This document shows positions 39,918-56,218 of a stretch of DNA of 64,000 nucleotides, piece after piece. A program made the translations under genes and the position numbers. The notes under the pieces are model-generated. The model was not told where the DNA came from. It made no database searches and worked only from the letters and a program-made list of their open reading frames with translations. The stretch's first letter is position 1. Every line of letters starts with the position of its first letter. Source of the DNA: Jiangella gansuensis DSM 44835 (GTDB taxonomy: Bacteria > Actinomycetota > Actinomycetes > Jiangellales > Jiangellaceae); assembly GCF_000515395.1 (NCBI RefSeq), contig NZ_KI911782.1, positions 186,001-250,000 on the forward strand. The letters are read 5' to 3'.

Positions 39918-39975
39918 TGGCGGAGGATAGGGGATTCGAACCCCTGAGGGATTGCTCCCAACACGCTTTCCAAGC
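39918..39975 (-). other. attL: displaced 3' fragment of tRNA-Ser(GGA)
   Basis: The 58 bp are identical to 56161-56218 and include the CCA end, T arm, variable arm and anticodon loop (TTGGAAA) on the minus strand. The 5' half of a tRNA is absent, so this is not a functional gene. It marks the left junction of the element. Confidence 0.93.
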
Positions 39976-40068
39976 CCGTGACCAGGCATTTGTCTGTATC
40001 CAGAACCGTCCGACCTGCAGACGATGCGTAGCACCTGCCTGTGTTATGGACAGGGCTGAACGGCCCCG

Positions 40069-40089
40069 AATGAGACGAGAACTGAGACG
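40069..40089. repeat. Left arm-type repeat (TGAGAC pair)
   Basis: These 21 bp are identical, in the same orientation, to 56081-56101. Each copy contains TGAGAC-N6-TGAGAC. Position 93 bp inside attL suggests an integrase or excisionase arm-binding site. Confidence 0.6.
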
Positions 40090-40212
40090 GGAGCGGACGG
40101 CTCGTGGTCCACCTGGAGGCGGGATCGGCCTCATCAGTTAGACGCCCCCGGCCGGTGCTGGAACACCGGACCGGGGACTTGATCCCAACCTGACCTAACC
40201 AGGGAGAGACCC

Positions 40213-40764
40213 ATGGTCACCGTATCGAAGCCGAAGAAGCGGGAGATCATCACCCGCGCTCCGTTCGTGCATCACGACATCGGAGAGATCGTCGCCTACC
40301 ACGATGAGGAAGGCCCCACCATCGATGTGACGATCCGCCCGGAGGACAGCGATCAGTACGCACAGTTCGCCCTCACTGCGGCCGACGCGCACCAGCTGGC
40401 CGACGAGCTGCACCGCATCGCCGATGAGGCCCAGCGAGCCGGCTGGACCCCGACCATCCTGTCCGACGCACGGGCGTACCTGCCGGGCATGACGGATGAG
40501 CAGATCATCGATCGGCTGGACCGGCTGTACCGCCGGTGGGGCGGGCTCGTGATCGGGTTCCGCGGCCGGCTGGATCGTGCCGCCGGGCGTGCGCTCGCGG
40601 TCGAGGTGCACATCGAGACGCTGGAACGCTCGGTCAGCCTGGTCGAGGAGCACGCTGGGCGGCTGTCCGGGATCCCGGAGCTGGCGGACCGGCTGAACGA
40701 GCTGCGCTCGTCGCTGGAGGACGTGAGGCAGCTCTACATCGCGGAGCAGGAGCGCCAGCCGTGA
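40213..40764 (+). CDS. Hypothetical protein of the element
   Basis: The protein has 183 residues. The N-terminal half looks beta-rich (VHHDIGEIVAYHDEEGPTID) and the rest is helical with a likely coiled coil at the end (LADRLNELRSSLEDVRQLY). ATG 40213 follows AGGGAGAGACCC. It overlaps the next gene by 4 bp. I do not recognise a family. Base composition is like the element backbone. A hairpin (about 40145-40175) precedes it. Confidence 0.65.
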   Translation: MVTVSKPKKREIITRAPFVHHDIGEIVAYHDEEGPTIDVTIRPEDSDQYAQFALTAADAHQLADELHRIADEAQRAGWTPTILSDARAYLPGMTDEQIIDRLDRLYRRWGGLVIGFRGRLDRAAGRALAVEVHIETLERSVSLVEEHAGRLSGIPELADRLNELRSSLEDVRQLYIAEQERQP

Positions 40765-41066
40765 CCGGGGCGGTCGACCGTAACGCGGCGTGCTCGGTGA
40801 AGTGGTGCGACGAGACCGGAACGCACGCCGTTCACCGCAAGTACGTGGCATCGGTCCCTGGCGGGATTCGTGGCGGCGGCCTGGTCGGCGTGAACCTCGC
40901 GCAGCGTGTCCAACCGCGGGCGTCGGTGTGTGTCGAGCTGACCGTGACCACGCCGTGGGCGTCAACGGCCGGCTACCTGTTCGCGGCATCGTGCGCGCCG
41001 GAGATCGCGGCGGCGCTGACCGAGGCCGCCGAACGAGCGACCGAGCTGGGTGGAACGAAGCCTTGA
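40761..41066 (+). CDS. Hypothetical protein of the element
   Basis: The protein has 101 residues from GTG 40761, which overlaps the previous stop (GTGA). It begins AACSVKWCDETGTHAVHRKY, with two cysteines and two histidines that might bind zinc, and ends in a helix, EIAAALTEAAERATEL. It is probably translationally coupled to the upstream gene. No function can be assigned. Confidence 0.6.
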   Translation: MTGAVDRNAACSVKWCDETGTHAVHRKYVASVPGGIRGGGLVGVNLAQRVQPRASVCVELTVTTPWASTAGYLFAASCAPEIAAALTEAAERATELGGTKP

Positions 41067-41182
41067 CCGGCGCGACTGAGGGCTAGCGGCTCCGCCGTGA
41101 GGTCCATTTGACGGTGGCTTGGCGATGACCGTGGGGCTGACGCGGAATACCGCCTGCCTACTAGAAGTTGTGAGGTATATTG

Positions 41183-41533
41183 ATGGGTGCCTGGGTGATT
41201 CACGAACACCCTGACGTCGCCAAGTGGTTGGAGGGCCTGACTGGTACGACCGCGGTGACCGTCGCCGCGGCCCTTGACCGACTGGCCGAGGACGGGCCGG
41301 CGCTGGGACGACCGACGGTGGACAGCATCAAGGGCAGTCGGCATCACAACATGAAGGAGCTGCGTGCGCGCACGGTACGGATCTTGTTCGTGTTCGATCC
41401 ACGGCGCGCCGCCATCCTCCTGGTGGCCGGCGACAAGCGAGGCGAGTGGGAACGCTGGTACAAGACGTCCATCCCGCTCGCGGACGACCGATACGACGAG
41501 TGGCTGACGTTGCTCGACGAGGGCAAGGCATAG
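41183..41533 (+). CDS. RelE/HigB-like toxin (Gp49 family)
   Basis: The protein has 116 residues. The pattern HEHPDVAKWLEGL, GPALGRPTVDSIKGS, MKELRARTVRILFVFDP, and GDKRGEWERWYKTSIPLAD is that of phage-derived Gp49/HigB toxins, ribosome-dependent mRNA interferases. ATG 41183 is chosen. It precedes the XRE antitoxin by 8 bp, the toxin-first order of HigBA-type modules. It may help to maintain the element. Confidence 0.87.
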   Translation: MGAWVIHEHPDVAKWLEGLTGTTAVTVAAALDRLAEDGPALGRPTVDSIKGSRHHNMKELRARTVRILFVFDPRRAAILLVAGDKRGEWERWYKTSIPLADDRYDEWLTLLDEGKA

Positions 41534-41541
41534 GGGGCGAG

Positions 41542-41883
41542 ATGACTCAGGAGATCGAGACCACGACCGACACCGCGCGCTGGCCGACGTGGGCGGAGAC
41601 CCGCGCGAAGCTGAACGTCGACGAGGCCGCCGTAGCCCAGGCTCGTGCGGAGCTGGAGGCGGAGGAAGCCGCGTATCGGCTGACCGAGATCCGGCGCGAG
41701 CAGCACCGCACCCAGACCGAGGTCGCCCGCGACATGGGTGTCAGTCAAAAGCGGGTGAGCGAGATCGAACGCGGCGACCTGACCCGCACCGAGGTCGACA
41801 CCATCAGCCGCTACGTCGCCGCGCTCGGCGGTCGGATCCGGATCGTCGCGGACTTCCCCGGCCACAGCATCACCGTGCGCTGA
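41542..41883 (+). CDS. XRE-family antitoxin (HigA-like)
   Basis: The protein has 113 residues. A helical N-terminus (residues 20-55) precedes a Cro/C1-type helix-turn-helix (about 58-100: TQTEVARDMGVSQKRVSEIE). ATG 41542 has AGGGGG upstream. It should bind both the toxin and the promoter of the pair. No similar antitoxin is elsewhere in the window. Confidence 0.87.
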   Translation: MTQEIETTTDTARWPTWAETRAKLNVDEAAVAQARAELEAEEAAYRLTEIRREQHRTQTEVARDMGVSQKRVSEIERGDLTRTEVDTISRYVAALGGRIRIVADFPGHSITVR

Positions 41884-42330
41884 TCTTCGCTCGTAGATCT
41901 GGCGATTGTCGGACATGTTTGCCTGGGGACGCCGCCCTGGGCGAAAATGGCACTGACCTGCAAGAACCTTCTCTGTGGCTCTCATCGGATCGTGGCCGTT
42001 CCGACCTTCGACGGCCCAGTGACCGCCTGATCTTGGCCGCGCGGCGCTGGGCTCGGGGCCCGTCGTGACGTGCTCCGCGGCATCCGCACCTATGCGCACG
42101 CTGGTGCGCTCGTCGACGGGCTGGTCCGTTGGCCGCTGTCGGTCGCTCAGTCCGACCGCTGCTGCGCGATGCCTGGACGATGCGCAACAACATCACCATC
42201 CACGACGGGAGCCATCGAACGGTGACCAGGCGGGGCCGCCGAGTGTCCGGCCACCAGGCTAGTCTCGCAGCGCGGCCAATGACTGGCCGGTCCTTGCAGT
42301 GGCGCATGTTGACGCTTGGGGGTTCAACAG
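41884..42330. other. 447-bp stretch without a recognisable gene
   Basis: No frame here has convincing codon pattern or a plausible protein. Frames exist on both strands but give Arg/Pro-rich shadows. The region forms the left boundary of the low-G+C cargo and may hold its promoter or the remains of an older gene. Confidence 0.5.
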
Positions 42331-44502
42331 ATGGTCAAGTTGTTGGGTGACGATCCGGTGGACGGCACACCCGAGTTTCCCGACCTGCTTAGCCGGGAGC
42401 GTTATGCGAAGGAAATTGCAAATCTCTTGTGGCGCGTGCGGAAAGACAGCAATTCCAGCGTACTCGCATTGGTTGGCCCATGGGGGTCCGGAAAGACCAG
42501 CGTACTGGAAATGGTCGAACGGGAGCTGAGATCGTCTGCGAACGAAGGTAGATGGCTAACCGCTAACTTCAATCCGTGGATGTACAACAGCGTCGCGGCT
42601 CTTCAGATCGCGTTCTTCGGGGAGTTGCATGCTGCTCTACCAAAGGACGAGCAGTGGAAGACTGCAAAGGACCGACTGGGTGAGCTAGGTAAGAAGCTAG
42701 CGCCCCTTGCCTCGCTGATTCCCGGCATTGATGCATCTAGGGCTATAGACTTCGTCGCCGACACGTTGGCGGGCGATACAGGAATCGCTGAGACCAAGAG
42801 GCGAGCGGAAGAAGCACTCAGGTGTGCTAAGAGTCCGATGCTCGTAGTAGTAGATGATCTTGACCGTCTCACGCCAGATGAGCTCCTGTTCGTTTTTAAG
42901 CTGATTAGGCTCGTAGGACGCCTTCCGAACATCTACTATCTGCTCTCCTTTGACGAGCGTACGATGCTGGACGTCTTGAGCCGAACGGAGCTGGTTGGTG
43001 GTACCGGGACTAATTCCACGCCAAACAGAGCTCGAGACTATCTTGAAAAGATTGTTCAGATTCGCTTGGACTTACCCATATTTGGTGAGTACCAAGTGCT
43101 TGAAATGGTAAATCGGGCATTAGGATTTGTCATCGAGAGCAGCGGGGTTGCGCTTGATGAATCGGACTTGGAGCGCTTCCAGACAGCGTTCAGTAGGCAT
43201 CTGCAAGAGCGCTTGAACACGCCCCGAGCGATCAACCGATACTTCGGCCAGGTCGACGCATTGTATGGATTAATAGGAAAGGAGGTCGACTTCGTCGACT
43301 TCATGTTGGTCACATGGCTGCGGACCACTGAGCCATTAGCCTACCAAATGTTGTCACGTCACAAGGATGAATTAACTGGCACAAGCGGCAAGCTGTACGT
43401 TAACAGTAAGCAGCAGACCCATGCTCAGGTGGTCGAGATTTGGAAAACGCGACTACGAGAATCTGACGTGGCTGAAAACCATGTGGACGGAGTGTTAGCA
43501 GTTCTGGCCGTGCTATTCGTTCCCGTCAAATCTGCCACAGACGGTATGGATTACGGCGAAAAATGGGCCAAGGAGATCGGGGAGCGGCGGGGCGTCGGAA
43601 GCGCTGACTATTTTGATCGATACTTCAGCTTTGGGGTGCCGGAAGGCGATGTGGCAGATTTGCAAGTCGAGGCGGCGTTGGCTGCGCTGTCGGTGGGCGA
43701 GATGGACGCGCCAGAAGTGTTATTTCTACGGAGTGCGCTGACGAATGAGACTGGGTTGGTATGTCGCAAGATTGCAAGCCTTGTTCAGGGCAATCCTGTT
43801 GCGCCAGCCGAGGCTATACTGACCTTGATGGCGGAATGCTACTCGAAGATCCCAATAGGCGGAGGTCAAGCCCAACTTTCGTCACGTCGGACCATTGATC
43901 TGTTTGCTGCCGATCTGCTTCCGCGCCTCGCTGCTGCGACGGTCCCCGTACTGCTTCCGCGGCTTGCGCATGTTCCGGAGGGGATCTACCTCGTCGCGAA
44001 TATAGTTGCTCGTGCGTCAGTCGATGCGCGGTCTCGACCAGACCATGCGCCGATTCTCACCTGGATAAGCGAAGCACAGTATATTGTTAGTGGTTTAATT
44101 CAAGAGCGCCTCAATGTTGTGCATCGCGTTCGATTGGAATTAATTTCGGCCGAGGACTGGCAACTGGTTTGGACATGGCATCACATAGATCATGCGCGTT
44201 GGACAGTGTGGTACCGAAATCAACTTGCAGACGGCTGGTCTCTGATTGACCTAGTTGCCAAGCTCGTTCAGGAAGAGTGGCACTCTGGGAACCCGTCGCG
44301 CCACCTACTGGATATGGCGACCGTTGATTCGCTGCTTGGACTGGAATACGTTTTAGAGGTGTTGGGCGAAGAGCTCCTGCCCGCACAGGGTCCGTTTACG
44401 CTGCCTGCGTCGATCGAATCGTGGCAGGATCGACAGATCGTGGCCAAGGAGCTTTTGAGGCAACAGGTGGTTGCGCAGCGGCGACCGGCCTCGGGCGCAT
44501 AG
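42331..44502 (+). CDS. KAP-family P-loop ATPase
   Basis: The protein has 723 residues. The Walker A lies at 49-56 (GPWGSGKT), the KAP-typical NPWMY follows at 81-85, and the Walker B is at 171-180 (LVVVDDLDRL). A helical region with DYLEKIVQIRLDLP and RAINRYF completes the STAND-like KAP core. The membrane insertion of many KAP proteins is not evident here. The C-terminal 350 residues are unfamiliar. KAP ATPases such as PifA of plasmid F exclude phages. ATG 42331 has GGGGG upstream. Codon use is clearly more A+T-rich than in flanking genes. Confidence 0.87.
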   Translation: MVKLLGDDPVDGTPEFPDLLSRERYAKEIANLLWRVRKDSNSSVLALVGPWGSGKTSVLEMVERELRSSANEGRWLTANFNPWMYNSVAALQIAFFGELHAALPKDEQWKTAKDRLGELGKKLAPLASLIPGIDASRAIDFVADTLAGDTGIAETKRRAEEALRCAKSPMLVVVDDLDRLTPDELLFVFKLIRLVGRLPNIYYLLSFDERTMLDVLSRTELVGGTGTNSTPNRARDYLEKIVQIRLDLPIFGEYQVLEMVNRALGFVIESSGVALDESDLERFQTAFSRHLQERLNTPRAINRYFGQVDALYGLIGKEVDFVDFMLVTWLRTTEPLAYQMLSRHKDELTGTSGKLYVNSKQQTHAQVVEIWKTRLRESDVAENHVDGVLAVLAVLFVPVKSATDGMDYGEKWAKEIGERRGVGSADYFDRYFSFGVPEGDVADLQVEAALAALSVGEMDAPEVLFLRSALTNETGLVCRKIASLVQGNPVAPAEAILTLMAECYSKIPIGGGQAQLSSRRTIDLFAADLLPRLAAATVPVLLPRLAHVPEGIYLVANIVARASVDARSRPDHAPILTWISEAQYIVSGLIQERLNVVHRVRLELISAEDWQLVWTWHHIDHARWTVWYRNQLADGWSLIDLVAKLVQEEWHSGNPSRHLLDMATVDSLLGLEYVLEVLGEELLPAQGPFTLPASIESWQDRQIVAKELLRQQVVAQRRPASGA

Positions 44503-44637
44503 GGTGCGGCTCCCACACTTCGGCGTCGTCCTCGTGGCTGCCGCTCGTTGGCTCGAGCGGAGCGGGTCAAGGGTCGGCGCAGCCGATCACGTAGTGACGC
44601 CGCAGGCGCCCTTGACGCGTGAAGTGGAGGCCAAAGG

Positions 44638-44913
44638 ATGGCCGCGATGAGGACGACGCCGACCTACGCTGACTGTGCGGACCTGGACGAACTGATGTGG
44701 GCCGCCCGCGTGGCCGCCGGCCGACAGGCCCGGAACGGCCGCCAGGCCGCACGCCCGGCCCTGAGGCCGGGCGGGCACGGCGCGCGAAGCGCGCCGCTTG
44801 ATACCCAAGAGGTCTGTCCGGCAGTCCCGGGGAGACTCGGTGCGCTCCGTCGGCTGATGTGTGACACGCGTCCGCCACAGTGCGTACTTGTACGAAAGGC
44901 GCCCACTGGTTAG
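44638..44913 (+). CDS. Doubtful small ORF in a hairpin-rich gap
   Basis: The frame encodes 91 residues starting at ATG 44638. Only the first third (YADCADLDELMWAARVAAGR) looks like a protein; the rest is spread over two strong stem-loops (about 44752-44773 and 44779-44795). It could be a remnant or a false frame. The gap of 423 bp around it otherwise shows no gene. Confidence 0.25.
   Translation: MAAMRTTPTYADCADLDELMWAARVAAGRQARNGRQAARPALRPGGHGARSAPLDTQEVCPAVPGRLGALRRLMCDTRPPQCVLVRKAPTG
44752..44795. repeat. Two adjacent stem-loops
   Basis: CGCCCGGCC/GGCCGGGCG (loop CTGA) is followed at once by GGCGCGC/GCGCGCC (loop GAA). They sit between the KAP gene and the convergent HEPN-type gene and may terminate transcription from either side. 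Confidence 0.55.
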
Positions 44914-44925
44914 ACGCGATGCGAG

Positions 44926-46515
44926 CTACGTGGCTTCCGCCAAAATCTGATCGAGATCAGCAAGGTCACTGCGGTCGACCATTATTCCTTCGAGAGGCAG
45001 CACCTTATATTCAGGATGCCAGTGGGAACCGTGAACTGGCGAGGAAGTGGCGCCCATCATCACCATGGTCACTGGTTCCGTCAAGTCGACCAGCGGAATA
45101 CCGGCCCTCCAATTCTCAAAGCTTGCTTCCTGCTCTTCCGGCAGCTCGGGTCGGAGACACTGGCGCACGCAACGCGCCGTTCGATCGTGCAGCCACCAGC
45201 TCACGCGGCCGTCAGGCTGGATAAGTGCGAATACGACCGACCTAGCCTCGTCGGGCGCGTCAAATAACTCGGCTGCATCGCTTCTGGCGTGGGCGACAGC
45301 AATTTGGTAGCGGAGGAATGTTGCAGCCCAGTTTGGCTCGTTCGGGTCGGTCAGCAAATCACGAGTTCGCCGCGTGAGAAGACCGAGTTCTTCTAGTCGC
45401 GCAGTGCCCAATAGGCCAATCGCCGTTCTCGGCCATCGGCGGATGTTCTGTGGGGTGGCGAGCCGGTCGCTCACGAATGAAAAGACATCCTCCATTGCCC
45501 GAGCAGCGGCATTGGCCTCCTCGTGGCGCACGGTGTAGGCAGCATGAACTACTCGATGGCGCAACGCTGCGAGGTCCCTTCGCCATGTCGCCAGGGCGCC
45601 CGGGCGGTCCAGATTCCAGACACCGCCGAGCCGATTGTGATACTGACTTCTGATCCTCCATTCTAATCCGGAATCGAAAAGTGTGCCCACGTCGACTGGC
45701 GGCATGCGTTCCTCCCAGGCGAGGGAGATAAGAAGGTCATCAAGAAGCGTCTCTGTTGCCGTGCCTGCAAGGATGACGGCGGTCTCATATTCACCTTGCC
45801 GCCTTGCGAGTTGCCAAACCTGCTGCCGGAGATCGGCGAACCGCGAGAATACCCGATGGCTATCAATGGCTTGAAGGACGTGCTGGAACCGTTGCAGGTC
45901 CGCGGTCGACAAGTCGGGGTAGCGTGCTAACCGATAGATGTTGTCGTGTGGAACGAATATCTCCAGACCGTCCGGCCAAGCTGGATTCTCGGCTGTCACA
46001 CCGCTGCGGTGTGCGAACGGTAGCATGACGGGCATCCTTTCGCGCGTCGCCAGCGCTGCTGGAAGTCCCGTTGTGGCACGATAGGCGCGCTGAACGAGCC
46101 GGATAGAATTAAGGCATTCGTCGAACGCTTCCGAGATAGCAGCTTCGTCGTCAATATCGGTTCTAAGCGGAGCGACGCACTCCACGACAGTTATCGGCAC
46201 CGCTGGCCGCTCTCCATAGCTACCGTCATTTGTAGGGGCAAGAGTCGGAATTGCCCTTCGGGCCACATCGTTAATTGCCCGAAGGATGTCGATGGAAGCA
46301 TCGGTCTCTTGGTGCCAAAATTTCAAGGAGACCCAATGGACCGTATCGCCGATATCAAGGTCTTGCCCACTGGCCGAGGCCGCGATCAGATCATCTATCA
46401 TGGCGGCCTCTTCCAATCGTTGGACGAATCCGTCCGGAAAAGCGAGCGCATCCTCCAGCGGGATTAGAAAGTGGACGAGGTCGACGCGAGCATCCTGGGA
46501 TGGCAACTCCTGCAT
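44926..46515 (-). CDS. Large HEPN-motif protein A of the cargo module
   Basis: The protein has 529 residues. A central helical region (about 225-350) contains TATETLLDDLLISLAWEE and LRHRVVH (R319 to H324), an R-x4-H motif as in HEPN ribonucleases. It shares full-length similarity with the divergent gene at 46634: YETAVILAGTATETLLDD versus YRGAVVWSACAAESLLDE, RLGGVWN versus RLGGAWN, and C-terminal LPLEGIMVDRSDL versus VPMAGVMVDGSDL. I do not recognise a named family. ATG 46515 follows GGAGGAG. Codon use is like the KAP gene. A nuclease or RNA-binding role is inferred. Confidence 0.75.
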   Translation of the reverse strand: MQELPSQDARVDLVHFLIPLEDALAFPDGFVQRLEEAAMIDDLIAASASGQDLDIGDTVHWVSLKFWHQETDASIDILRAINDVARRAIPTLAPTNDGSYGERPAVPITVVECVAPLRTDIDDEAAISEAFDECLNSIRLVQRAYRATTGLPAALATRERMPVMLPFAHRSGVTAENPAWPDGLEIFVPHDNIYRLARYPDLSTADLQRFQHVLQAIDSHRVFSRFADLRQQVWQLARRQGEYETAVILAGTATETLLDDLLISLAWEERMPPVDVGTLFDSGLEWRIRSQYHNRLGGVWNLDRPGALATWRRDLAALRHRVVHAAYTVRHEEANAAARAMEDVFSFVSDRLATPQNIRRWPRTAIGLLGTARLEELGLLTRRTRDLLTDPNEPNWAATFLRYQIAVAHARSDAAELFDAPDEARSVVFALIQPDGRVSWWLHDRTARCVRQCLRPELPEEQEASFENWRAGIPLVDLTEPVTMVMMGATSSPVHGSHWHPEYKVLPLEGIMVDRSDLADLDQILAEAT

Positions 46516-46539
46516 GGGCCTGCTCCTCCACTCGTCCTA

Positions 46540-46549
46540 GCCCATGGGC
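46540..46549. promoter_or_regulatory. Palindrome in the divergent HEPN promoter region
   Basis: GCCCATGGGC is a perfect 10-bp palindrome 25 bp upstream of protein A in the 118-bp gap between the two paralogs. It may be an operator; no consensus is matched. Confidence 0.3.
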
Positions 46550-46633
46550 GATTAGGCGGCCGATAAGCGAACGATCGGTCAGGTTGTGTCCGACGATGAT
46601 GGCAGGATGAATGGGGTCCGGCAAGGGGCGATC

Positions 46634-48295
46634 ATGGAAGGAACCTTAGTGAGCAGTCAACACATTCGAGTGCTAACGCCACCAGCCGTTGTGCACTTCT
46701 TCCTTCTGATGCCCGAGCGACTTGCGTTGCCTGACGGATGGGAGGAGACCATGGTGTCGTTCCTGCCGCCGGATCAGGCTGAGCACGTACCGCCGCCAGA
46801 CGATGCTCCGCCAGCTGCACCGGGCCAGGTGATTGACCATACTGGAGATCGCGTATTTCAGTGCAGGCTCAGACACTATATCGGGGCTCATGTCTCACAG
46901 AGCGTGCGTGATCTGAAGGCAACCGCGCGAGTTGCCGAGCGTATCGGATTCCCCGGAGGCGCCGAGCGGATTCCAGAACATAGCAGGCCCAGAATCGACC
47001 CTCCCGAGACCGACGCGTCGGTAGTGCAGGTTTCGGTACCCTGTTCGCCAGGCGCCAACAGAGAAGAACTGTTAGCGGCACTCCAGATCGCGGTCCAATA
47101 TGTACAGGATCTACAACGAAGCTACTATCACGCCGTCCAGGATCCAGTGTCTCTGGTGACCTTAGAGCGCTTGCCAGCGTTCGTGAGGTATGTGATCACC
47201 GAAACAAGTAGCTATCAGGCGCCGTCGGTTGATTCGCTTCATGGGAATGTCGTCGCTAACGGTGCTCTCGCTGTCAATCTTCATAGCCTTGTTGGACAGC
47301 CTGGGCGAGACTTCGAGGCGACTAGCGCTTCGATTGCCTCAGATTTTCGCATGCTCGACGAGGGCGATCAGTTCTTTTCGTTCTTGGAGTTTCGCCGTGA
47401 GGCGACCACTTCGCTGGAGATCCTAGGTGACTACCGTGGCGCGGTCGTCTGGTCAGCATGTGCAGCCGAGTCGTTGCTTGACGAGATCTTGCAGGCGATG
47501 CTCTGGGAAGAAAGTGTGAGACCGGAGGATGCAGTAGGCGAGTTCCTAGATCAGGCTGGAGGTATAACGGCCAGAGTAAAATCCAAATATGGCGCTAGGT
47601 TGGGTGGCGCATGGAACATCGGGGATAATGCTAGTGGCCCTATAGCGGACTGGTTCGCAAAGGTTGCCAATGTTAGAAATCGCGTGGTGCATGGGCGGTA
47701 CGGCCCTTCGCGTGTAGACGCTGCGGACGCGCTCAGCGCACTCAACGGGCTCGTTACCTTCCTCTGCGACCGGTTCGCCGATCGGACGAGAGATTATCCA
47801 CGGACGGCGTGGATGCTCCTCGGGGGCCGTGGGGGATTCGAACGACGCGGCCGGCGAGTGCCTAGGAGGATCGTGGAGTTGCTTGAGGATACTAGCGAGG
47901 TCCGATGGAGTGAAACGTTGTTTAGGTGGCGAGAGTCCAATGCTCGCTGCCGACGCGACGCCGAGGCTCGTAGGGTTCCGGATCTGACGCGGGCGCACCG
48001 TTATGTGGTGATGTGCCCAGGTGGCGGCGAGTATCTCTGCTTCCACGATCGTGTGACGGCCCAGGCCTCAAAGGCCGCGTTCTCGTTTGATCAAATGATT
48101 GACGGGCACCGTGAGTCATTTATGCAAGCGCTACCACTTATACGGTCAAGGATGCGCGACACACATCTCTCAACCGGCTTTCCGTCTAGTGTGTTTCCGA
48201 GCGCCGTGCCGACGACTGACTGGGTAGAGGAATATCGCCTAGTTCCTATGGCGGGCGTGATGGTAGACGGTAGCGATCTAGATGATGCTTGCTAA
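46634..48295 (+). CDS. Large HEPN-motif protein B of the cargo module
   Basis: The protein has 553 residues from ATG 46634, which has AAGGGG upstream; in-frame ATGs at 46586 and 46607 are alternatives. The central helical domain (about 245-375) carries CAAESLLDEILQAMLWEE and VRNRVVHGRY, with R348 and H353 as an R-N-x3-H HEPN motif. It is a paralog of protein A along most of its length. It has no membrane segment or known enzymatic domain beyond this. Codon use is A+T-rich, as in the KAP gene. Role in RNA cleavage during phage infection is an inference. Confidence 0.75.
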   Translation: MEGTLVSSQHIRVLTPPAVVHFFLLMPERLALPDGWEETMVSFLPPDQAEHVPPPDDAPPAAPGQVIDHTGDRVFQCRLRHYIGAHVSQSVRDLKATARVAERIGFPGGAERIPEHSRPRIDPPETDASVVQVSVPCSPGANREELLAALQIAVQYVQDLQRSYYHAVQDPVSLVTLERLPAFVRYVITETSSYQAPSVDSLHGNVVANGALAVNLHSLVGQPGRDFEATSASIASDFRMLDEGDQFFSFLEFRREATTSLEILGDYRGAVVWSACAAESLLDEILQAMLWEESVRPEDAVGEFLDQAGGITARVKSKYGARLGGAWNIGDNASGPIADWFAKVANVRNRVVHGRYGPSRVDAADALSALNGLVTFLCDRFADRTRDYPRTAWMLLGGRGGFERRGRRVPRRIVELLEDTSEVRWSETLFRWRESNARCRRDAEARRVPDLTRAHRYVVMCPGGGEYLCFHDRVTAQASKAAFSFDQMIDGHRESFMQALPLIRSRMRDTHLSTGFPSSVFPSAVPTTDWVEEYRLVPMAGVMVDGSDLDDAC

Positions 48296-48329
48296 TGTTC
48301 GATGTCTGTTTTGCTAGCTCGCGGGGAGG

Positions 48330-48992
48330 CTAGACGAGGCGCCTATCGAAACCGCGTTGGGCCAGACGGGTGAATCCGTCGCGAACGTCTTGAGGCATGT
48401 CTTGTGAAATGGCGAAGCCGCGCTCAGCGTAGAGGCTGATGCGCTGGGTGTCGCCAACAAGCATGTTGATGACGCGGTCATCGTCGGCGACAGTGGCGAG
48501 GTAGTCGCGGAGGCTCTGTGGCTGGGATGAGCAGATGACGTCGACGTCGGGCCATTGTTTGCGGCACGTGGCGTAGGCCCGGCGCTGTTGGTACGGCCGG
48601 CTGACGATAGTGACGGATCGTGGTCTGACGCCGTGCTCGGCGAGGAGCTGCCGGGTGAAGGTGATGTTCTCGGCGGTGTTGGTTGCGCGGGGCTCGATCA
48701 GGATCGCGCCGGCAGGCACGCCGAGTTCGGCGGCTCTGCGCGCGTAGTGGTTGGCTTCGCCGTCGGGGAAGAGGTCGACGGTCGTGGGCGCGTTAGCGCC
48801 AGTGAACACGATCAGCGGGAACATACCGCGGTGGTAGAGGTCGGCGGTGTGGTCGGCGACGCCGAGGTCGTGGCTGCCGAGGCCGATGCCGACGTCAGTG
48901 CGCCGCAGCTCGTGGTGGAGCTGGTGGTAGTCCCACAGGATCTGCGCGTCCTCCAGGACGTCATCAGGCAGTCTCGATCGATCAGCACCCAT
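48330..48992 (-). CDS. YdcF/DUF218-family protein
   Basis: The protein has 220 residues. The DUF218 pattern is visible: IGLGSHDLGVADHTADLYH, IVFTGANAP, then ATNTAENITFTRQLL and SVTIVSRPYQQRRA. No signal or membrane segment is seen, so it is cytoplasmic, unlike SanA. The biochemical role of this branch is unknown. It follows the GntR gene by 17 bp in the same direction, a pair I recall from other actinobacterial elements. G+C is higher than in the cargo. Confidence 0.83.
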   Translation of the reverse strand: MGADRSRLPDDVLEDAQILWDYHQLHHELRRTDVGIGLGSHDLGVADHTADLYHRGMFPLIVFTGANAPTTVDLFPDGEANHYARRAAELGVPAGAILIEPRATNTAENITFTRQLLAEHGVRPRSVTIVSRPYQQRRAYATCRKQWPDVDVICSSQPQSLRDYLATVADDDRVINMLVGDTQRISLYAERGFAISQDMPQDVRDGFTRLAQRGFDRRLV

Positions 48993-49009
48993 AGCTGCCA
49001 GCTACCCAA

Positions 49010-49777
49010 CTAGTCGGGGATCTTGAATTTGTAGCTCCAGGAGAACCGTGACGCCGAGTGCACGCCGCGCGCGAACTCGACCACCTTGCCACTCTCGGTG
49101 GTGGTGATCCGCTGGAGGATCATGACCGGCTCGCCGGCCGGCAGCTCCAGCGTCTCGCGCTCGTCGGGCGTGGGCATGCGCGCGTAGAACGTCTCCGCGA
49201 TCTCGTGCGGCTCCAGGCCCTGCATCGTCAGCACGGCGTACCCGCCCCCGCTACCGGCGGGTCCTGGCGTCGGATCGACGATAGGCGTCCCTTTGACGTC
49301 CTCGGGCCTGTAGTAGCTGGTGAGGGTATGCGTGGGGGTGCCGTCGTCCTTCACGAGTCGTGCTCGCTCGTAGACGGTCGACCCAACTGGCACGGATAGA
49401 GCGGTCGCGATCTCCTGGTCGGCTGGGACCTGCCGGACCGTCTGTGTCTGGTCGGTCCACTTCCACGGCCGGCCCGAGGCCTCGCGGTCGGCGGCGAACG
49501 CGACGAGGTCACCGAACTTCCACTTGCTCTTCGCGTACCGCTCGGCGCCGAGCCGTTGCATCGGTGGCCGGATACGAACCACCGTGCCCCGCCGGCGGAC
49601 GGGCGTCACGAGCCCTTCGGCCGCTAGCAGCGAGACGGCGTTGCGGACCGTCTTCACGTTCACGCCGTGCTCGGTCGCAAGCTCGTCCTGTTTGGGCAGC
49701 GTAGAGCCCTCGGGGTACTCACCCCGCAAGATCGCCGCTCGGAGCACATCCGCCAGCTCGCGGTAGCCGGTGGCCAT
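49010..49777 (-). CDS. GntR/UTRA repressor, KorSA-like
   Basis: The protein has 255 residues. A GntR winged helix (about residues 5-70: ADVLRAAILRGEYPEG, VNVKTVRNAVSLLAAEGLV) is followed by a UTRA effector domain with YERARLVKDDG and RITTTESGKVVEFARG. ATG 49777 follows GGAGGTGAT. In pSAM2, KorSA of this family represses pra and itself. Three copies of the GGTACCTCTA half-site lie between this gene and the divergent Pra-like gene. It is therefore the likely master repressor of the element. Confidence 0.88.
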   Translation of the reverse strand: MATGYRELADVLRAAILRGEYPEGSTLPKQDELATEHGVNVKTVRNAVSLLAAEGLVTPVRRRGTVVRIRPPMQRLGAERYAKSKWKFGDLVAFAADREASGRPWKWTDQTQTVRQVPADQEIATALSVPVGSTVYERARLVKDDGTPTHTLTSYYRPEDVKGTPIVDPTPGPAGSGGGYAVLTMQGLEPHEIAETFYARMPTPDERETLELPAGEPVMILQRITTTESGKVVEFARGVHSASRFSWSYKFKIPD

Positions 49778-49801
49778 CGCATCACCTCCCGAGCCGATAA
49801 C

Positions 49802-49895
49802 GGTACCTCTACTCATCGTCTGCGCGACACCGGGGCTATAGAGCTACCTCTATTGACATGTGCTGCGCCGGACTGTTCCATAGAGGTACCTCTAT
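49802..49895. promoter_or_regulatory. KorSA-type operators
   Basis: ATAGAGGTACCTCTAT at 49880-49895 is a perfect 16-bp palindrome. ATAGAGCTACCTCTAT at 49838-49853 differs at one base. A further half-site GGTACCTCTA lies at 49802-49811, close to the GntR start. Spacing of 40 and 42 bp places them on similar faces of the helix. Confidence 0.8.
49853..49882 (+). promoter_or_regulatory. Promoter of the Pra-like gene
   Basis: TTGACA (49853-49858) is followed after 18 nt by TCCATA (49877-49882). One operator touches the -35 box and another covers the -10 box, so repressor binding should block transcription. Confidence 0.6.
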
Positions 49896-49940
49896 CGGTC
49901 AAGGGCGGTCCTGACCGCCCGAGCAAGCAAGGAGCAGGGC

Positions 49941-50420
49941 ATGGCACTACAGCGAGGTCACCGGTTCCCGGTGGAGTTCGCCGAGGCGTTTCCGCGAGGT
50001 CTGGTTTTGATCGGTGAGATCGAACCGGACCTGGAGTACGTGTCGCAGGAGGATCGGGCGCGTGGCCGTGAGGCTCGGCAGCTGGTGGACGAGGTCACGA
50101 AGCTGCGGCAGTGGCGCGGGACCGTGACAGATCCGGACGAGCAGAAGGCGAAGCGGGCGTCGTTCGACGTCATCTTCACCGCCGAGGTGCAGCCGGCGCC
50201 GTTGCCGGACGAGGTGTTGCCGGGTATGCGCCCGATCGAGCTGGTCGGGCTGACGGCGTCGCCGAAGGTGATGGGGCAGGGCGAGTTCAAGTACCTCGGA
50301 TACGAGTACCGCGCCACCGGTGTGAAGGCGCCCGGCACCGCTGAGACGGCGCGCCCGGCTGGACGGCCCGACGGCACGGCGCACGACGCGGTTAAGGCCA
50401 GCGAGAAGAAGGCCGGCTGA
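49941..50420 (+). CDS. Pra-like activator of element replication and excision (candidate)
   Basis: The protein has 159 residues. Its start, RFPVEFAEAFPRGLVLIGEI then EPDLEYV, resembles the pattern of proteins annotated as replication, integration and excision activator (Pra) in AICEs. ATG 49941 follows AAGGAG. It is divergent from the KorSA-like gene and under the operators described, which is the pSAM2 korSA-pra arrangement. The C-terminal 40 residues are a low-complexity tail. Pra in pSAM2 turns on repSA-xis-int; the same role here is inferred. Confidence 0.62.
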   Translation: MALQRGHRFPVEFAEAFPRGLVLIGEIEPDLEYVSQEDRARGREARQLVDEVTKLRQWRGTVTDPDEQKAKRASFDVIFTAEVQPAPLPDEVLPGMRPIELVGLTASPKVMGQGEFKYLGYEYRATGVKAPGTAETARPAGRPDGTAHDAVKASEKKAG

Positions 50421-50423
50421 GCC

Positions 50424-50957
50424 ATGGCTGACACGACAGTGAAGGCGCCGTCGGACGTCTATAGGGCGGCGGACTGGCTCGCGGCCCGGCATCCATAGGT
50501 TCGGCAGCTGGTCGAGCGGATCGCCGGCCGCATCGACGACCAGCCCGACTGGTTGGACGTCATCACCGCCACCGTCAACGAGCACCTGGCGCACTCAGCG
50601 GCCTGTGCAGAGTACGAAGACCGCTACCCGGCCCCGGACGACGACGCGGCGTTCTGGGAGTGGCAGGAACGCGGCCCGCAGGCCTCGCGTGAGGTGCAGG
50701 CGTTCGGTGTCATGTCCAGCGGTGAGAAGAACCTCGTCCGGCTGGTCGCCACGCTCGGCGGGCGGGTGGCCTGGTCGCCGCTGGATGTGTCGTTCGACCA
50801 ACGCGGCGCCGCTGTGCTCGCGGACTGGCTCGCGATCGTGCACGCCCAGCTGCCCGCGTGGGTGTATCCGGTCGGCAGTGATGACGCGCTCGTCGAGCGG
50901 CTGGCCGCGGTGAGTCACGAGATCAACGGCGAAGGACTGACTGTCGTCTCGCGATGA
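50424..50957 (+). pseudogene. Element gene interrupted by an in-frame TAG
   Basis: ATG 50424 starts 3 bp after the Pra-like stop. Codons 1-24 end in AARHP; codon 25 is TAG (50496-50498). The same frame then continues for 152 codons with normal composition (VRQLVERIAGRIDDQPDW, later FWEWQERGPQASREVQ) to the stop at 50955-50957. A single base change from CAG or GAG would explain it. The downstream part might be re-initiated, for example at TTG 50553. The intact product would be about 177 residues; family unknown. Confidence 0.75.
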
Positions 50958-50961
50958 GTCC

Positions 50962-51010
50962 CCACCGGGGACGGGTGACAGGCCTAGGAAACCAACCCCG
51001 TCCCCGGTGG
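50962..51010. repeat. 14-bp perfect inverted repeat inside the element operon
   Basis: CCACCGGGGACGGG (50962-50975) and its exact reverse complement (50997-51010) flank a 21-nt loop. It may be a terminator, an attenuator or part of a replication origin. Confidence 0.65.
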
Positions 51011-51044
51011 CCCCAATCAACACCCCCGAACGGAGGGGATTGGT

Positions 51045-51546: not shown

Positions 51547-51617
51547 TCTCCGATGCAACGAACCAACCTGACGACGCCTGAGCCAGGCGTCCTGAGCCCG
51601 GCCGGGTGGTGTGCGCG

Positions 51618-53044
51618 ATGACCTGGCTGCTGAAGCTCGTGACCGGCGTGTGGCTGCTCCAGCTGGCGTGGCGGTTCAAGGGCATTCTGACCGTCGGGGT
51701 ACTGGCGGTGTTCATGGTCGCCGCCTACGGGTGGGCCGGCCTGCTGCTTGTGCTGGCGGGTCCGCCGCTGCTCGCCGTCGTGTGGCGGTGGGTGCACCCG
51801 TGGTCGTACTGGCGGTTCGTCGGCTGGCTGATGGCCCGGCACCGCCTCCGGACGACCTATGAGCTGCGCTGGGCCGAGGTCATGCAGTCCTGCGGCCTGC
51901 ACCGCCCGATCCCGGCCGTCCCCGCGAGTACGCGACACCTCGGCTCGTGCGGGTGAGCGAAAGCGCGGTCGGTGACGTCCTGCGGGTGCGGCTGCTCACC
52001 GGGCAGCAGCCGGGCGACTTCGAACGCCAGGCGCCCGAACTCGCCCACGCCCTCGGCTCGCCTCTGGTGCGGGTGACCTCGGCCGGTCCCGGCCTGGTCG
52101 AACTCACGCTGGTTGAACGCGACGTTCTGGCCGAACCGGTCGAGCTGGATGACGTCGAGCCGGTGACCGATCTCCGGGCGGTGCGGTTCGCGGTCGGTGA
52201 GGACGGGCAGTGGCGGACCCGCGACTACGCCAACATCGCCGCCGAAGTTGGCGGTGGCGTCCCGGGCTCCGGGAAGACAGCCGGCGAAACGAGCCTGGCG
52301 TGCGGGCTGATCCAGAACCCGGCCGTCCAATACGTCGTGATCGACGGCAAGGGCGGCGAGGACTGGTCCTGGATCGCCCCACGCGCCGCCGCCTACACCA
52401 ACGAGGACGAAGACCTGAGCGCCGTCCTCGAGCTGGTCGAGTCCGTGCACCAGCTCATGCGCGCGAGGTTGAAGACGCAGAAGACCGTCCGTGGGCAGGC
52501 GAACTTCTGGAACCTCCCACTCGACCCGGCACACCCGGTGATCTTCCTCGTGGTCGACGAGGTCCAGACGTTCACCGACCAGAAGGCCATGGACAAGGAC
52601 ACCAAGACGGTCGCAGCCACGATCACGGCCCGGCTGTCGGCGCTGGTGAAGAAGGGCCGCTCGGCCGGGATCATCACGCGGCTACTGACGCAGAAGCCCA
52701 CCTCGGATGCGATCCCGACCGCGATCCGCGACAACGCCTCCGTGCGCACCGCCTGGCGGGTGCTGTCCGACGACGCCGCCGAAGCCATCCTCGGACCCGT
52801 CGTCCGCGGCTCCGCCGTGACTCCGGTCGACATCCCCGTCGGCATGCCCGGTGTCGCCGTGGTCGCCACCGCCGGCGGACAGCTCGAACGCGTCCGGTTC
52901 CCCTACGTCGACGAGCACACCGCCGAACAAATCGCCAACCGCACCGCACACCTGCGCCGCGACCTGGCCGACCTCACCGGCCCCACAGCCGACGACGAGG
53001 CGCCTGCGGACGAGGCCGCGAGTGAGCAGGAGGCGACGGCATGA
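51618..53044 (+). pseudogene. FtsK/SpoIIIE-type translocase (TraB-like), split by a frameshift
   Basis: Two frames together make one FtsK-like protein of about 475 residues. The first (51618-51956) gives two membrane helices, HPWSYWRFVGWL and CGLHRPIP. The second, open from before 51947 to 53044, continues as REYATPRLVRV, then LLTGQQPGDFERQAPELAHA, Walker A GVPGSGKT and Walker B VIFLVVDEVQ. The joint lies at about 51911-51917 (CCCGGCC), where one missing C would restore the frame. AICE TraB proteins move double-stranded DNA between cells. GTG 51947 could still allow a membrane-less product of 365 residues. Overlaps repSA by 4 bp. Confidence 0.78.
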
Positions 53045-54588
53045 CGGCCCTGCCCGACGACGCGACGATGCGCGAGCTCGCGGCCAGTGAGCGGGTCTGC
53101 GTGCGGCCGATCCTGCAACGGGTCACCGACACCCTCACCGGCACCGTGCGGACCGTCGTCCTGCCCTGTGGCGCCACCCGCGCGAAGGTGTGCCCCTCGT
53201 GCGCGGACGCTGCCCGCCGGCTGCGGATCCAGCAGTGCCGCGAAGGTTGGCACCTCGCCGACGACCCACCCAAGCCAGTACCGGAACCCGGCGAGGGTGC
53301 AGAGAACGACGCCGTCGACCAGGCCGACGAGGACGACGACGAGACCGGTCGTCGCGTGCGGTCGACCAGGCGGCGGCAAGACGCCCCCGATCTTCCGCGG
53401 CTGGCGGTGTCGGACACGACGGTCGGGCGCGTGTTCGAGGCACCGGACGGGAAGACGTATCGGCCGTCGATGTTCGTCACGCTGACCCTGCCGTCGTACG
53501 GGCGCGTCACTAGCGAGGGTGTGCCGGTTGACCCGGCCCGATATGACTACCGGCGGGCGGCGCTGGATGCGATGCACTTCCCGAAGCTGGTGGACCGGTT
53601 CTGGCAGAACCTCCGCCGCGCCACCGGCTACTCAGTGCAGTACTTCGCCACCGTCGAACCCCAACGCCGCCTCGCCCCGCACCTGCACGCCGCCATCCGC
53701 GGCGCCATCCCGCGCAAGCTCCTGCGTCAGGTGGTCGCGGCGACCTACCACCAGGTGTGGTGGCCACAGCTCGACGAACCCGTCTACACCGACGTGCTGC
53801 CGGTGTGGGACGAGCTGGCGCAGGCCTACGCCGACCCGACCACCGGTGCCGTCCTGCCGACATGGGACGAAGCGCTGGACGCCATCGACGACGACCCGTC
53901 CGCCGTGCCGGCACACGTGATCCGCGCCGGGTCGCAGGTCGACATCCAGGGCGTCATCGCGGGCACGCCGCTTGCGGACCGCGTCATCGGCTACCTGACG
54001 AAGTACCTCACGAAGTCGATCAGCGACCCACTCCACGACGACGCCGACGGCGAGGCACCCGTCTCGATGGCACGCAGAGCGCATATAGATCGGCTCGCCG
54101 AAGAGGTCCGTTGGCTGCCGTGCTCGCCGACGTGTGCGAACTGGCTCCGTTACGGCGTGCAGCCCAAGGACGCGAGAGGTGGCATGGAGCCTGGCCGCTG
54201 CGGGTCCAAGGCGCACGACCGGGACCACCTCGGCCTCGGCGGCCGGCGCGTCCTCGTGTCCCGCCGCTGGACCGGCAAGACCCTCGACGAGCACCGGGCC
54301 GACCGTGCCGCCGTCGTGAAAGCGGTCCTCGCCGAAGCGGGCGTGGAAATGGACGACCACGACGAGCTTTCGGCAACCGCCACCCGGCCCGACGGGCTGC
54401 CTCGGTTCGTGTGGACCACGACCAAGCCCGGCGACCTCGACGCACCGACCTACGCCCGGCTCATCGCACACGCCATCGCGCAGAAACACCGCTGGCGAAC
54501 CCAGTACGAGGACGCGAAGACCCGCGCCGGACCTGCGGCGCTCGGTCTTTCGGCAACTGCAAGGCCTGCCGCTGCCCCGGCGGCGTGA
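53041..54588 (+). CDS. RepSA-like rolling-circle replication initiator
   Basis: The protein has 515 residues. The HUH motif is at residues 214-216 (LAPHLHAAIRG), preceded by FVTLTLPSYG (145-154) and followed near residue 320 by the conserved YLTKYLTK. Cysteines at 43, 51, 54 and 66 may bind zinc. This pattern is that of RepSA of pSAM2 and related AICE initiators, which nick the origin and start rolling-circle replication after excision. The Asp/Glu-rich segment at 85-105 is a linker. It overlaps the translocase gene by 4 bp and is followed by xis and int. Confidence 0.9.
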   Translation: MTALPDDATMRELAASERVCVRPILQRVTDTLTGTVRTVVLPCGATRAKVCPSCADAARRLRIQQCREGWHLADDPPKPVPEPGEGAENDAVDQADEDDDETGRRVRSTRRRQDAPDLPRLAVSDTTVGRVFEAPDGKTYRPSMFVTLTLPSYGRVTSEGVPVDPARYDYRRAALDAMHFPKLVDRFWQNLRRATGYSVQYFATVEPQRRLAPHLHAAIRGAIPRKLLRQVVAATYHQVWWPQLDEPVYTDVLPVWDELAQAYADPTTGAVLPTWDEALDAIDDDPSAVPAHVIRAGSQVDIQGVIAGTPLADRVIGYLTKYLTKSISDPLHDDADGEAPVSMARRAHIDRLAEEVRWLPCSPTCANWLRYGVQPKDARGGMEPGRCGSKAHDRDHLGLGGRRVLVSRRWTGKTLDEHRADRAAVVKAVLAEAGVEMDDHDELSATATRPDGLPRFVWTTTKPGDLDAPTYARLIAHAIAQKHRWRTQYEDAKTRAGPAALGLSATARPAAAPAA

Positions 54589-54607
54589 CATGGAAGGAAC
54601 AGTCCGC

Positions 54608-54838
54608 ATGAACGACGACGAGACGCTGATCGCCCTCCGATCAGCCGGTGACGTCCTGACCATCGAGGAAGCCGCACGCTATCTGCGTATCGGCCGGACC
54701 ACGATGTATGCGCTGGTCATGAGTGGAGAGATCCGCTCCATCAAGATCGGGTACCTCCGTCGCGTGCCGGTCGAGTGCCTGCGCGAGTACGTCGCCGACC
54801 AGCTGCGCCAGGCTCAGGCCGCGGGACAGGTGGCGTGA
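54608..54838 (+). CDS. xis: Excisionase (HTH_17/MerR-like)
   Basis: The protein has 76 residues. DVLTIEEAARYLRIGRTTMY and the later IKIGYLRRVPVECLREYV are typical for the excisionase-type winged helix. ATG 54608 follows GGAAGGA; an upstream in-frame ATG at 54590 is an alternative. Its stop overlaps the int start (TGATG), so the two are translationally coupled. It directs the integrase toward excision. Confidence 0.9.
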   Translation: MNDDETLIALRSAGDVLTIEEAARYLRIGRTTMYALVMSGEIRSIKIGYLRRVPVECLREYVADQLRQAQAAGQVA

Positions 54839-56085
54839 TGGCTACCCGCAGACCCAACGGCGCGTCGAGCATCTACCTGGGTAAGGACGGCGACTGGCAT
54901 GGCCGGGTCACCGTCGGCATCAAGGACGACGGCTCGCCGGACCGTCGGCACGTGCAACGCAAGACCGAAGCCGAGGTCATCGCCGCGGTGCGCAAGCTCG
55001 AACGCGACCGCGACGCCGGAGCCGTCCGCAGGGCCGGCCAGCGATGGACGGTGGAGAGCTGGCTCATGCACTGGATCGAGAACATCGCCGTCCCGCCCGC
55101 GATCAGCGACTACACGCACGACGGATATCGCCGGGACATCAAGGTCCACCTCGTGCCCTGCGTCGGAAAGCACCGCCTCGAACGCTTGCAACCCGAGCAC
55201 CTGGAGAAGCTGTACGCGGCCATGCAGAAGGAGAAGGGCCGTAGCGCGGGCACGGCTCACCACGTGCATCGGACGATCCGGGCAGCGTTGAACGAAGCCG
55301 TGCGGCGCAAGTACCTGACATCGAACCCGGCCACCCAGGCGAAGGCTCCGAACGTCCAAGAGATCGAGGTCGAGCCGTACGACGTCGACGAGGTCAAGCG
55401 GCTGCTGAAGGTGGCCGGCGAGCGGCGGAACAGTGCCCGATGGGCGATCGCGCTGGCGCTCGGCCTGCGTCAAGGCGAGGCGCTGGGGTTGAAATGGTCG
55501 CATCTCGACCTGGAGACCGGGACGCTTCGGGTCCGCCGTAGCCGGCTGCGGCCGAAGTTCGCCCACGGCTGCGACGGAACATGCGGACGGCAGAAGGCTG
55601 GCGACTGCCCGCAACGCATCCAGGTGAACCCCGACACCAAGGACACTAAATCCCGTGCCGGGCGCCGCGTCGTCGGACTACCGCCGCAGCTCGTCGCCCT
55701 GCTCGAAAAGCACCGTGAGGAACAGAACGCCGAGCGGGTGGCCGCAGGTGAGGCGTGGAAGGACGAGGGCTGGGTGTTCGCGAAGCCCAACGGGACCGCG
55801 CTCGCCCCGGCGACCGACTATCACGAGTGGAAGCGGCTCCTGAAGGCCGCCGGCGTCCGTGACGGTCGCCTGCACGATGCCCGGCATACGGCGTCGACCG
55901 TCCTGCTGATCCTCGGCGTGCCTGAGCGCACGGTCATGTCCATCATGGGATGGTCGTCGACAGCGATGGCGGCCCGATACCAGCACGTCACCGACCCGAT
56001 CCGCCGCGCGGTCGCGCAGCAGGTCGACGGGCTGTTGTGGGCCGACCAGGACGACGACAAGAAGGCCGACGGCGAAGGCAAATGA
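54838..56085 (+). CDS. int: Tyrosine site-specific integrase
   Basis: The protein has 415 residues. The catalytic residues are visible: R211 (LGLRQGEALGL), H346 and R349 (LHDARHTAS), W372 and Y381 (AARYQHV). An N-terminal AP2-like arm-binding domain (about 1-60) and a SAM-like core domain (70-165) precede it. A Cys cluster (C245, C249, C257) in an insertion may bind zinc. Its stop codon lies inside the 21-bp arm-type repeat, and attR is 75 bp downstream. It integrates the element in tRNA-Ser(GGA). Confidence 0.93.
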   Translation: MATRRPNGASSIYLGKDGDWHGRVTVGIKDDGSPDRRHVQRKTEAEVIAAVRKLERDRDAGAVRRAGQRWTVESWLMHWIENIAVPPAISDYTHDGYRRDIKVHLVPCVGKHRLERLQPEHLEKLYAAMQKEKGRSAGTAHHVHRTIRAALNEAVRRKYLTSNPATQAKAPNVQEIEVEPYDVDEVKRLLKVAGERRNSARWAIALALGLRQGEALGLKWSHLDLETGTLRVRRSRLRPKFAHGCDGTCGRQKAGDCPQRIQVNPDTKDTKSRAGRRVVGLPPQLVALLEKHREEQNAERVAAGEAWKDEGWVFAKPNGTALAPATDYHEWKRLLKAAGVRDGRLHDARHTASTVLLILGVPERTVMSIMGWSSTAMAARYQHVTDPIRRAVAQQVDGLLWADQDDDKKADGEGK

Positions 56086-56101: not shown

Positions 56102-56109
56102 AGCGGCCC

Positions 56110-56160: not shown

Positions 56161-56218
56161 TGGCGGAGGATAGGGGATTCGAACCCCTGAGGGATTGCTC
56201 CCAACACGCTTTCCAAGC
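56161..56218 (-). other. attR core
   Basis: This 58-bp copy, supplied by the element, restores the 3' part of tRNA-Ser(GGA) including its encoded CCA. It is identical to attL. Confidence 0.93.

Follow-up and report, generated by a model that had tools for sequence, protein, structure and literature searches.

PifA of plasmid F excludes phages. Its range is narrow as far as the accessible text of PMC8594841 goes, since it acted on very few coliphages only, T7 included. The HEPN superfamily is defined in excerpts of PMC3710099 by an R-x4-6-H motif with a polar residue after the arginine, and these excerpts furthermore describe AbiJ and other HEPN families of the abortive infection (Abi) type, in which the HEPN domain is joined to a family-specific N-terminal domain and some of which lie beside restriction genes. 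ApeA is a single-gene defence composed of ApeA_NTD1 and HEPN_Apea, and both PifA and HEPN are mentioned in the accessible part of PMC12342005. According to excerpts of PMC11706625, diDNase genes occur in actinomycete integrative and conjugative elements (AICEs) and near defence genes, and defence-type cargo is therefore not new to AICEs as such. Here we describe an AICE of Jiangella gansuensis DSM 44835 whose cargo comprises a PifA-like KAP ATPase and two HEPN-family proteins, A and B, and which lies in a stretch of 64,000 nt, hereafter the window (GCF_000515395.1, NZ_KI911782.1 positions 186,001-250,000, forward strand; all coordinates are window positions).

All three genes are present where an initial annotation had placed them, but the notion that they form a single system, plausible as it was, is probably wrong. 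We consider it likely that the element instead holds two cargo slots around a conserved palindrome, with a stand-alone PifA-like KAP ATPase in slot 1 and a separately acquired, divergent pair of HEPN genes in slot 2. Two objects emerge, namely a HEPN family that is not recognised by Pfam, NCBIfam or PADLOC, and an exchangeable two-slot AICE cargo region that can be mined for defence genes, for instance among the unmatched slot genes of the sibling elements L138 and L140.

Two cargo slots around a conserved palindrome

The locus is cargo of a 16.3-kb AICE of the pSAM2 type, which is integrated in tRNA-Ser and extends from 39918 to 56218 (Table 1). The element is bounded by a perfect 58-bp direct repeat of part of tRNA-Ser(GGA), as shown by a blastn comparison of the window with the tRNA region (58/58 identical), and it has in common with pSAM2-type elements the attachment (att) repeat at a tRNA, the tyrosine integrase, RepSA, the FtsK-like protein (a match below cut-off) and the GntR regulator, but differs from them in having two cargo slots with a conserved palindrome between them. 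The accessible text of the open-access literature contained no description of such slots in AICEs; papers on AICEs in Streptomyces (PMC9513070) and on the antiviral arsenal of Actinobacteria (PMC10482375) could hold related observations. The proposal of the initial annotation that the genes are mobile cargo is supported, and a role in defence likewise appears likely.

Eight sibling AICEs from the genus (L136-L143) have a related RepSA, at 91-92% identity in four and 87% in the other four, and one of them lies, as a further such element, in the genome from which the window was taken. The four closest, L136-L139, lack KAP and both HEPN genes. Their backbone is colinear with the window up to ~41.89 kb and resumes at 48.4 kb (at 49.9 kb in L139), and between these ends blastn aligns just the segment ~44514-44823, in three of the four. 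The left edge of slot 1 in these close siblings is formed by the toxin and helix-turn-helix (HTH) genes (41180..41883; 91-98% identical in L136-L139), and the right edge of slot 2 is formed in L136-L138 by the DUF218 gene, none being seen in L139. The window has counterparts in L140-L143 for RepSA, the FtsK-like gene, the palindrome segment and parts of the flanks, but none of comparable identity for the integrase, GntR and DUF218 genes. No KAP relative was found in any of L136-L143.

That the two slots exchange separately follows from two comparisons among the siblings. The alignment of L136 with L138 is unbroken across slot 2 and the palindrome, with 96.8% and 99.6% identity between their slot-2 proteins, and the two elements then differ in slot 1. 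In slot 1 of both L136 and L137 there is an RmrA-like gene (30-35% identical), whereas slot 2 holds a kinase in the former and an MmeI-type enzyme in the latter. KAP and the HEPN pair thus look like cargo of two separate slots, separately acquired.

The DNA fold of the palindrome (-51.8 kcal/mol, z -6.3) was reached in stability by none of 200 shuffles, and a profile of the palindrome matches all eight siblings, in L139 weakly and in split form. Single-base indels between the siblings argue against coding, despite an overlapping open reading frame (ORF) of 103 residues in the window, and since the consensus fold of 52 pairs includes a single compensatory one, conservation may act on the sequence or on a DNA hairpin and not on an RNA. 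A conserved non-coding palindrome in a rolling-circle replicon is the mark of single-strand origins (sso) of the sti type. Rolling-circle replication of the element would be expected from its RepSA, and the palindrome, judging from its form in such a replicon, is a candidate sso, which we take to resemble sti of pIJ101.

The A+T-rich block noticed in the initial annotation stands in part, in that the G+C content at third codon positions is lowered in all three genes (0.594, 0.623 and 0.596 for KAP, HEPN A and HEPN B vs 0.80-0.89 in nine other measured genes), but it is not a single block, since the conserved segment separates KAP from the HEPN pair. Proteins A and B are encoded divergently, head to head, and KAP is convergent on protein A, so the three genes do not make up an operon; a scan for promoters and terminators gave a result close to chance.

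Table 1. Features of the element in window coordinates
Feature	Position	Strand	Basis
attL, left copy of the 58-bp repeat, left end of element	39918..39975	+	blastn
Backbone gene, DUF6907 match below cut-off	40213..40764	+	Pfam; 79-85% protein identity in L136-L139
RelE/HigB-like toxin (Gp49/DUF891)	41180-41533	+	Pfam PF05973, E 2e-18
HTH protein	41446-41883	+	HTH_3, E 2e-9
KAP ATPase, PifA-like, 723 residues, slot 1	42331..44502	+	PADLOC PifA and Pfam KAP_NTPase matches
Imperfect palindrome, 147 nt, between slots, apparently non-coding	44522..44668	.	DNA fold, sibling profile
HEPN-family protein A, 529 residues, slot 2, R319-x4-H324	44926..46515	-	alignment; no family match
HEPN-family protein B, 553 residues (counted from an internal ATG), slot 2, R348-x4-H353	46634..48295	+	AlphaFold2 model, structural matches
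DUF218 protein	48330..48992	-	PF02698, E 1.3e-18; 78-81% identical in L136-L138
GntR/UTRA regulator	49010..49816	-	library match; 93-96% identical in L136-L138
FtsK/SpoIIIE-like protein, putative conjugative translocase	51947..53044	+	Pfam FtsK_SpoIIIE below cut-off; 77-92% identical in 8/8 siblings
RepSA replication initiator, pSAM2 type	53041..54588	+	PF20199, E 7e-97
Tyrosine integrase	54775..56085	+	PF00589, E 2.7e-21
attR, right copy of the 58-bp repeat, within tRNA-Ser(GGA) 56161-56248	56161..56218	-	blastn

The HEPN family and its predicted fold

Proteins A and B are paralogs (28% identical over a 540-column alignment, near full length, E 2e-41), each with an R-x4-H motif (RHRVVH in A, RNRVVH in B) that exceeds chance expectation, and in these respects the initial annotation was accurate. 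In alignment A2, in which proteins A and B are joined by 15 relatives detected through similarity of the whole protein and not through the motif, R348 and H353 of protein B are identical in all 17 rows, and the residue after the arginine is N or H throughout, so each row carries the motif that defines the superfamily. L031, L032 and L035 are weak members of the family, and the latter two were excluded from A2. A DNA pattern led to 49 loci, and since it demanded W, W, R, N/H and H, invariance of these residues in the alignments A3 and A4 is circular and A2 alone supports the claim; A3 furthermore excludes three repeats, six fragments (L058, L063, L065, L084, L088 and L089) and the distant L028-L032 and L035.

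The family is a rare one. Profile or protein searches gave relatives in 10 of 393 genomes of the class and in 8 of 396 of the phylum, four of the latter weak and both counts including the window's own genome, in 5 of 198 genomes of one genus and on five actinobacterial plasmids, while in the window's own family the single positive among 22 genomes was the window's genome itself; the larger genome searches scored few best candidates per genome, and members may therefore be missed in these counts. Peptide-pattern searches with the window paralogs (P0004 against genome and viral contigs, P0002 against viral contigs) revealed no relative, and P0004 had no match in a phage collection, where P0002 was not tried.

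No convincing match to protein A or B was obtained in Pfam, PADLOC or NCBIfam (PHROGs was not searched), the HEPN profiles of Pfam match none of the 17 members at E 0.1, and no description of the family was found in the accessible text of the open-access literature. The suspicion that these proteins belong to no described system thus holds for the family in the three libraries. Like ApeA, the window proteins consist of a large N-terminal domain followed by an HEPN domain with an R-N/H-x3-H motif, and an ApeA-like gene fills a slot in the sibling L139, but they differ from ApeA by an extra C-terminal domain. Membership in the ApeA family was rejected, since HEPN_Apea (PF18739) and ApeA_NTD1 (PF18862) match 0 of 17 members at E 0.1 even though the same library does detect the L139 protein, and a profile comparison of the family with that protein gave a probability of 1.2%. 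With AbiJ and the other HEPN Abi families in the excerpts of PMC3710099 the window family shares the combination of an HEPN and a family-specific N-terminal domain, but it differs by its paired paralogs and by the lack of HEPN Pfam matches among the 17 members. A comparison of the family with the DUF5677 protein neighbouring a relative in L004 was likewise negative.

The HEPN identity proposed for the pair is borne out by the invariant motif and by an AlphaFold2 model of protein B (alignment of 31 rows; predicted local distance difference test, pLDDT, 82.2; predicted template modelling score 0.82), in which an N-terminal mixed alpha/beta domain is followed by an HEPN domain (~243-397) and a small C-terminal alpha/beta domain (~450-550). 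In this confident model, with pLDDT >90 over most of residues 250-400, the R-x4-H motif is predicted to sit in an HEPN-like helical fold. The best structural matches over residues 243-397 are 2hsb (Z 10.8, root-mean-square deviation 2.6, 120 aligned), 1ufb (9.5), 2q00 (8.9) and 1wol (8.8), followed, at Z 6.0-6.8, by a toxin-antitoxin complex, by HEPN toxins (HEPN/MNT) and by Csm6, with a nucleotidyltransferase-like chain interspersed. By their entry titles 2hsb is an HEPN protein and 1wol an HEPN homologue, and we take 1ufb and 2q00 to be HEPN proteins as well. Searching solved structures by sequence with the HEPN family gave nothing significant, and the N-terminal domain alone (pLDDT 72.6) had no structural match at Z 5, which does not show a new fold. 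Since Foldseek alone was not significant, the assignment of the fold relies jointly on the aligner used for a second look, on the motif and on the helix pattern.

By analogy the proteins are probably RNases of a new, unnamed family. As in known HEPN proteins they would dimerise into the RNase, the pair acting either as a heterodimer or as two units that differ in specificity, and the N-terminal domain may keep the RNase silent. A phage product, or another defence that fails, would release it, whereupon RNA cleavage would halt the infection through dormancy or death, that is by abortive infection. The pair does not appear to be a recent tandem duplication, since P0002 and P0004 form no clade in the tree and have long branches, although they may share one origin. 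It may also be asked whether the pair is rather a toxin with a neutralising partner than two effectors, as the head-to-head arrangement over a short intergenic region and the presence of a distant second family member near the first in L081 could indicate, but the motif is kept in both proteins and in 49 of 51 other loci most of the examined positions show a single family gene or pieces of a single one, L081 being the only locus outside the window with two distinct family genes; we regard such a partnership as very improbable. The L081 genes (740-5135) are distantly related and in opposite orientation, with a 332-residue gene that has no Pfam match between them.

PrrC guards a type I restriction system. 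An analogous role, in which the HEPN pair would stand guard over another defence, or over its own element, and fire when restriction, replication or transfer is blocked, has some footing in the excerpts of PMC3710099, according to which HEPN genes of the PrrC/RloC, AbiJ and ApeA kinds are found in restriction operons, and likewise in the surroundings of some relatives. In L033 (8560-14438; the same place as L070) an HEPN-family gene directly follows an HsdR gene and precedes a 327-residue gene without Pfam match, all on one strand, an HsdR-type neighbour is also found in L092 and L066 by similarity to L033, and in L007 the relative follows an annotated methyltransferase and helicase. These neighbours leave room for a guard role, but they were identified in just these loci, no restriction gene was recognised among the scanned proteins of the window element, and no physical interaction is known, so that we hold a guard to be unlikely. 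Abortive infection by a pair of RNases remains our preferred reading of slot 2.

KAP ATPases and their rare co-occurrence with the HEPN family

The gene in slot 1 is, by its sequence, a PifA-like KAP ATPase. As first annotated, it has intact Walker motifs (Walker A GPWGSGKT at 49, Walker B-like LVVVDDLDR at 171), and it matches Pfam KAP_NTPase at E 1e-37 and the PifA profile PDLC02361 of PADLOC over its full length (E 1.2e-56; residues 18-675, profile 17-693 of 720). Domain, length, full-length profile match and carriage on a mobile element are all as in PifA of plasmid F, the likeness being via the profile. No solved structure was matched by sequence. Matches to this KAP are uncommon in the class (6 of 296 genomes at E 1e-10), and a plasmid collection holds 1048 records with a match, the best plasmid relatives being proteins of Streptomyces and Kitasatospora (40-48% identity); the closest relative found is that of L042, at 48%. 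Assignment as QatA of the Qat system (QatABCD) was rejected, since the score of 65.4 bits compares with a curated cut-off of 600 and QatB-D had no hit among the seven window proteins scanned with PADLOC. By analogy the KAP ATPase would exclude phages independently of the HEPN pair, and it probably works alone as PifA does.

Two further occurrences of KAP genes were seen. On a Corynebacterium plasmid (L116, 4085-7968) genes annotated as AbiEi and AbiEii precede the KAP ATPase gene at a distance of 1 bp, and the genome of L136, whose AICE slot has no KAP, holds a KAP relative elsewhere (L045, E 4e-49).

In the initial annotation the KAP ATPase was thought to sense phage and turn on both HEPN RNases, and indeed the three genes are adjacent and have their low third-position G+C content in common. 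Co-occurrence elsewhere is nevertheless rare. KAP is found in none of 17 other HEPN-family loci and in one (L096) of 34 more. The 34, none of them longer than 8 kb, are those of the 49 loci found by pattern in which a profile confirms the family; L055, L068 and L070 repeat L024, L027 and L033. Together this makes a single locus with KAP among 51 HEPN-family loci besides the window, of which 48 are distinct. Conversely, HEPN-family genes are found in none of 20 KAP neighbourhoods, whose flanks are of varying extent, with one short side in L042, L043, L048, L052 and L120, and the 11.6-kb contig of L042, with the closest KAP relative, lacks an HEPN-family gene. Among 43 genomes with the HEPN family three match the window KAP at E 1e-5, one being that of L096 and the other two having a match that is weak or on a contig apart from the HEPN gene. 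No locus with KAP and both HEPN genes was found outside the window among the loci examined, and the co-occurrence on which the initial annotation had made its idea depend is thus not seen.

The case most favourable to a coupled function is L096 (3-3541), where the KAP gene ends 35 bp before an HEPN-family gene on the same strand, which is the more suggestive as KAP matches are uncommon. L096 is, on the other hand, a 3.5-kb contig binned as a spirochaete, although a search of 197 further genomes from that phylum gave no match and the tree places its HEPN protein with one from an actinobacterium. This locus keeps a weaker form of the coupled KAP-HEPN idea alive. The three-gene system itself was rejected on the co-occurrence counts and the sibling slot comparison, and with the conserved palindrome lying between slots that exchange separately, and KAP convergent on protein A, we judge it quite improbable. 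Two independent cargoes accordingly remain our favoured interpretation.

Cargo of the sibling elements and minor features

Crude gene calling gave 46 ORFs for the slots of the siblings; 20 of them were scanned with Pfam and 10 of these 20 also with PADLOC. Half of the scanned proteins (10/20) match defence-type families, namely a PD-T4-6-like kinase, RmrA and RmrT in L136, RmrA and an MmeI-type IIG enzyme in L137, ApeA in L139, a PHP-AAA protein with Ppl as its best PADLOC match in L141, and GmrSD_N, a RiboL-PSP HEPN and a CAP12/Pycsar TIR in L143, although a profile match to a kinase or regulator would not by itself prove a function in defence. It is possible, if doubtful, that the AICEs of this genus possess a dedicated two-slot hotspot for defence, built on a palindrome with two roles, priming of lagging-strand synthesis and demarcation of the border at which defence cassettes are exchanged slot by slot, and that one cassette represents a new abortive-infection family, a divergent HEPN RNase pair with its own sensor and C-terminal domains.

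Besides L096, several points weigh against the picture of two slots with a PifA-like exclusion protein and a pair of HEPN RNases. Four of the 20 sibling proteins match less telling families that are not specific to defence (an AAA domain in L137, PIN_8 and metallo-beta-lactamase in L142, Gmad2 in L140), six have no match (L136 9528-10337, L137 14650-15453, both slot-1 genes of L138, L139 9197-10075 and L140 9283-10449), and the palindrome is split and weak in L139. As to the fold, its structural basis is the model of protein B only. For helical bundles the tool advises a Z score of 13, which the matches do not reach, and a nucleotidyltransferase-like chain follows closely, together with a few others (Z 6.0, 5.7); Foldseek by itself matched nothing at E 0.001, either in PDB or among viral models. 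Furthermore, no activity or phage phenotype was found for any HEPN-family member, and as the relatives share just ~20-33% identity with protein B, the sample may have missed an orthologous three-gene cluster.

An R-N/D-x3-H motif is present in two of the unmatched sibling genes, L138 11360-11947 and L140 9283-10449. L138 has almost the same kinase pair as L136, the L138 copy lying outside the 20 scanned proteins. The RelE/HigB-like toxin and the HTH protein at the left edge of slot 1 are, by their family matches, likely to form a toxin-antitoxin pair.

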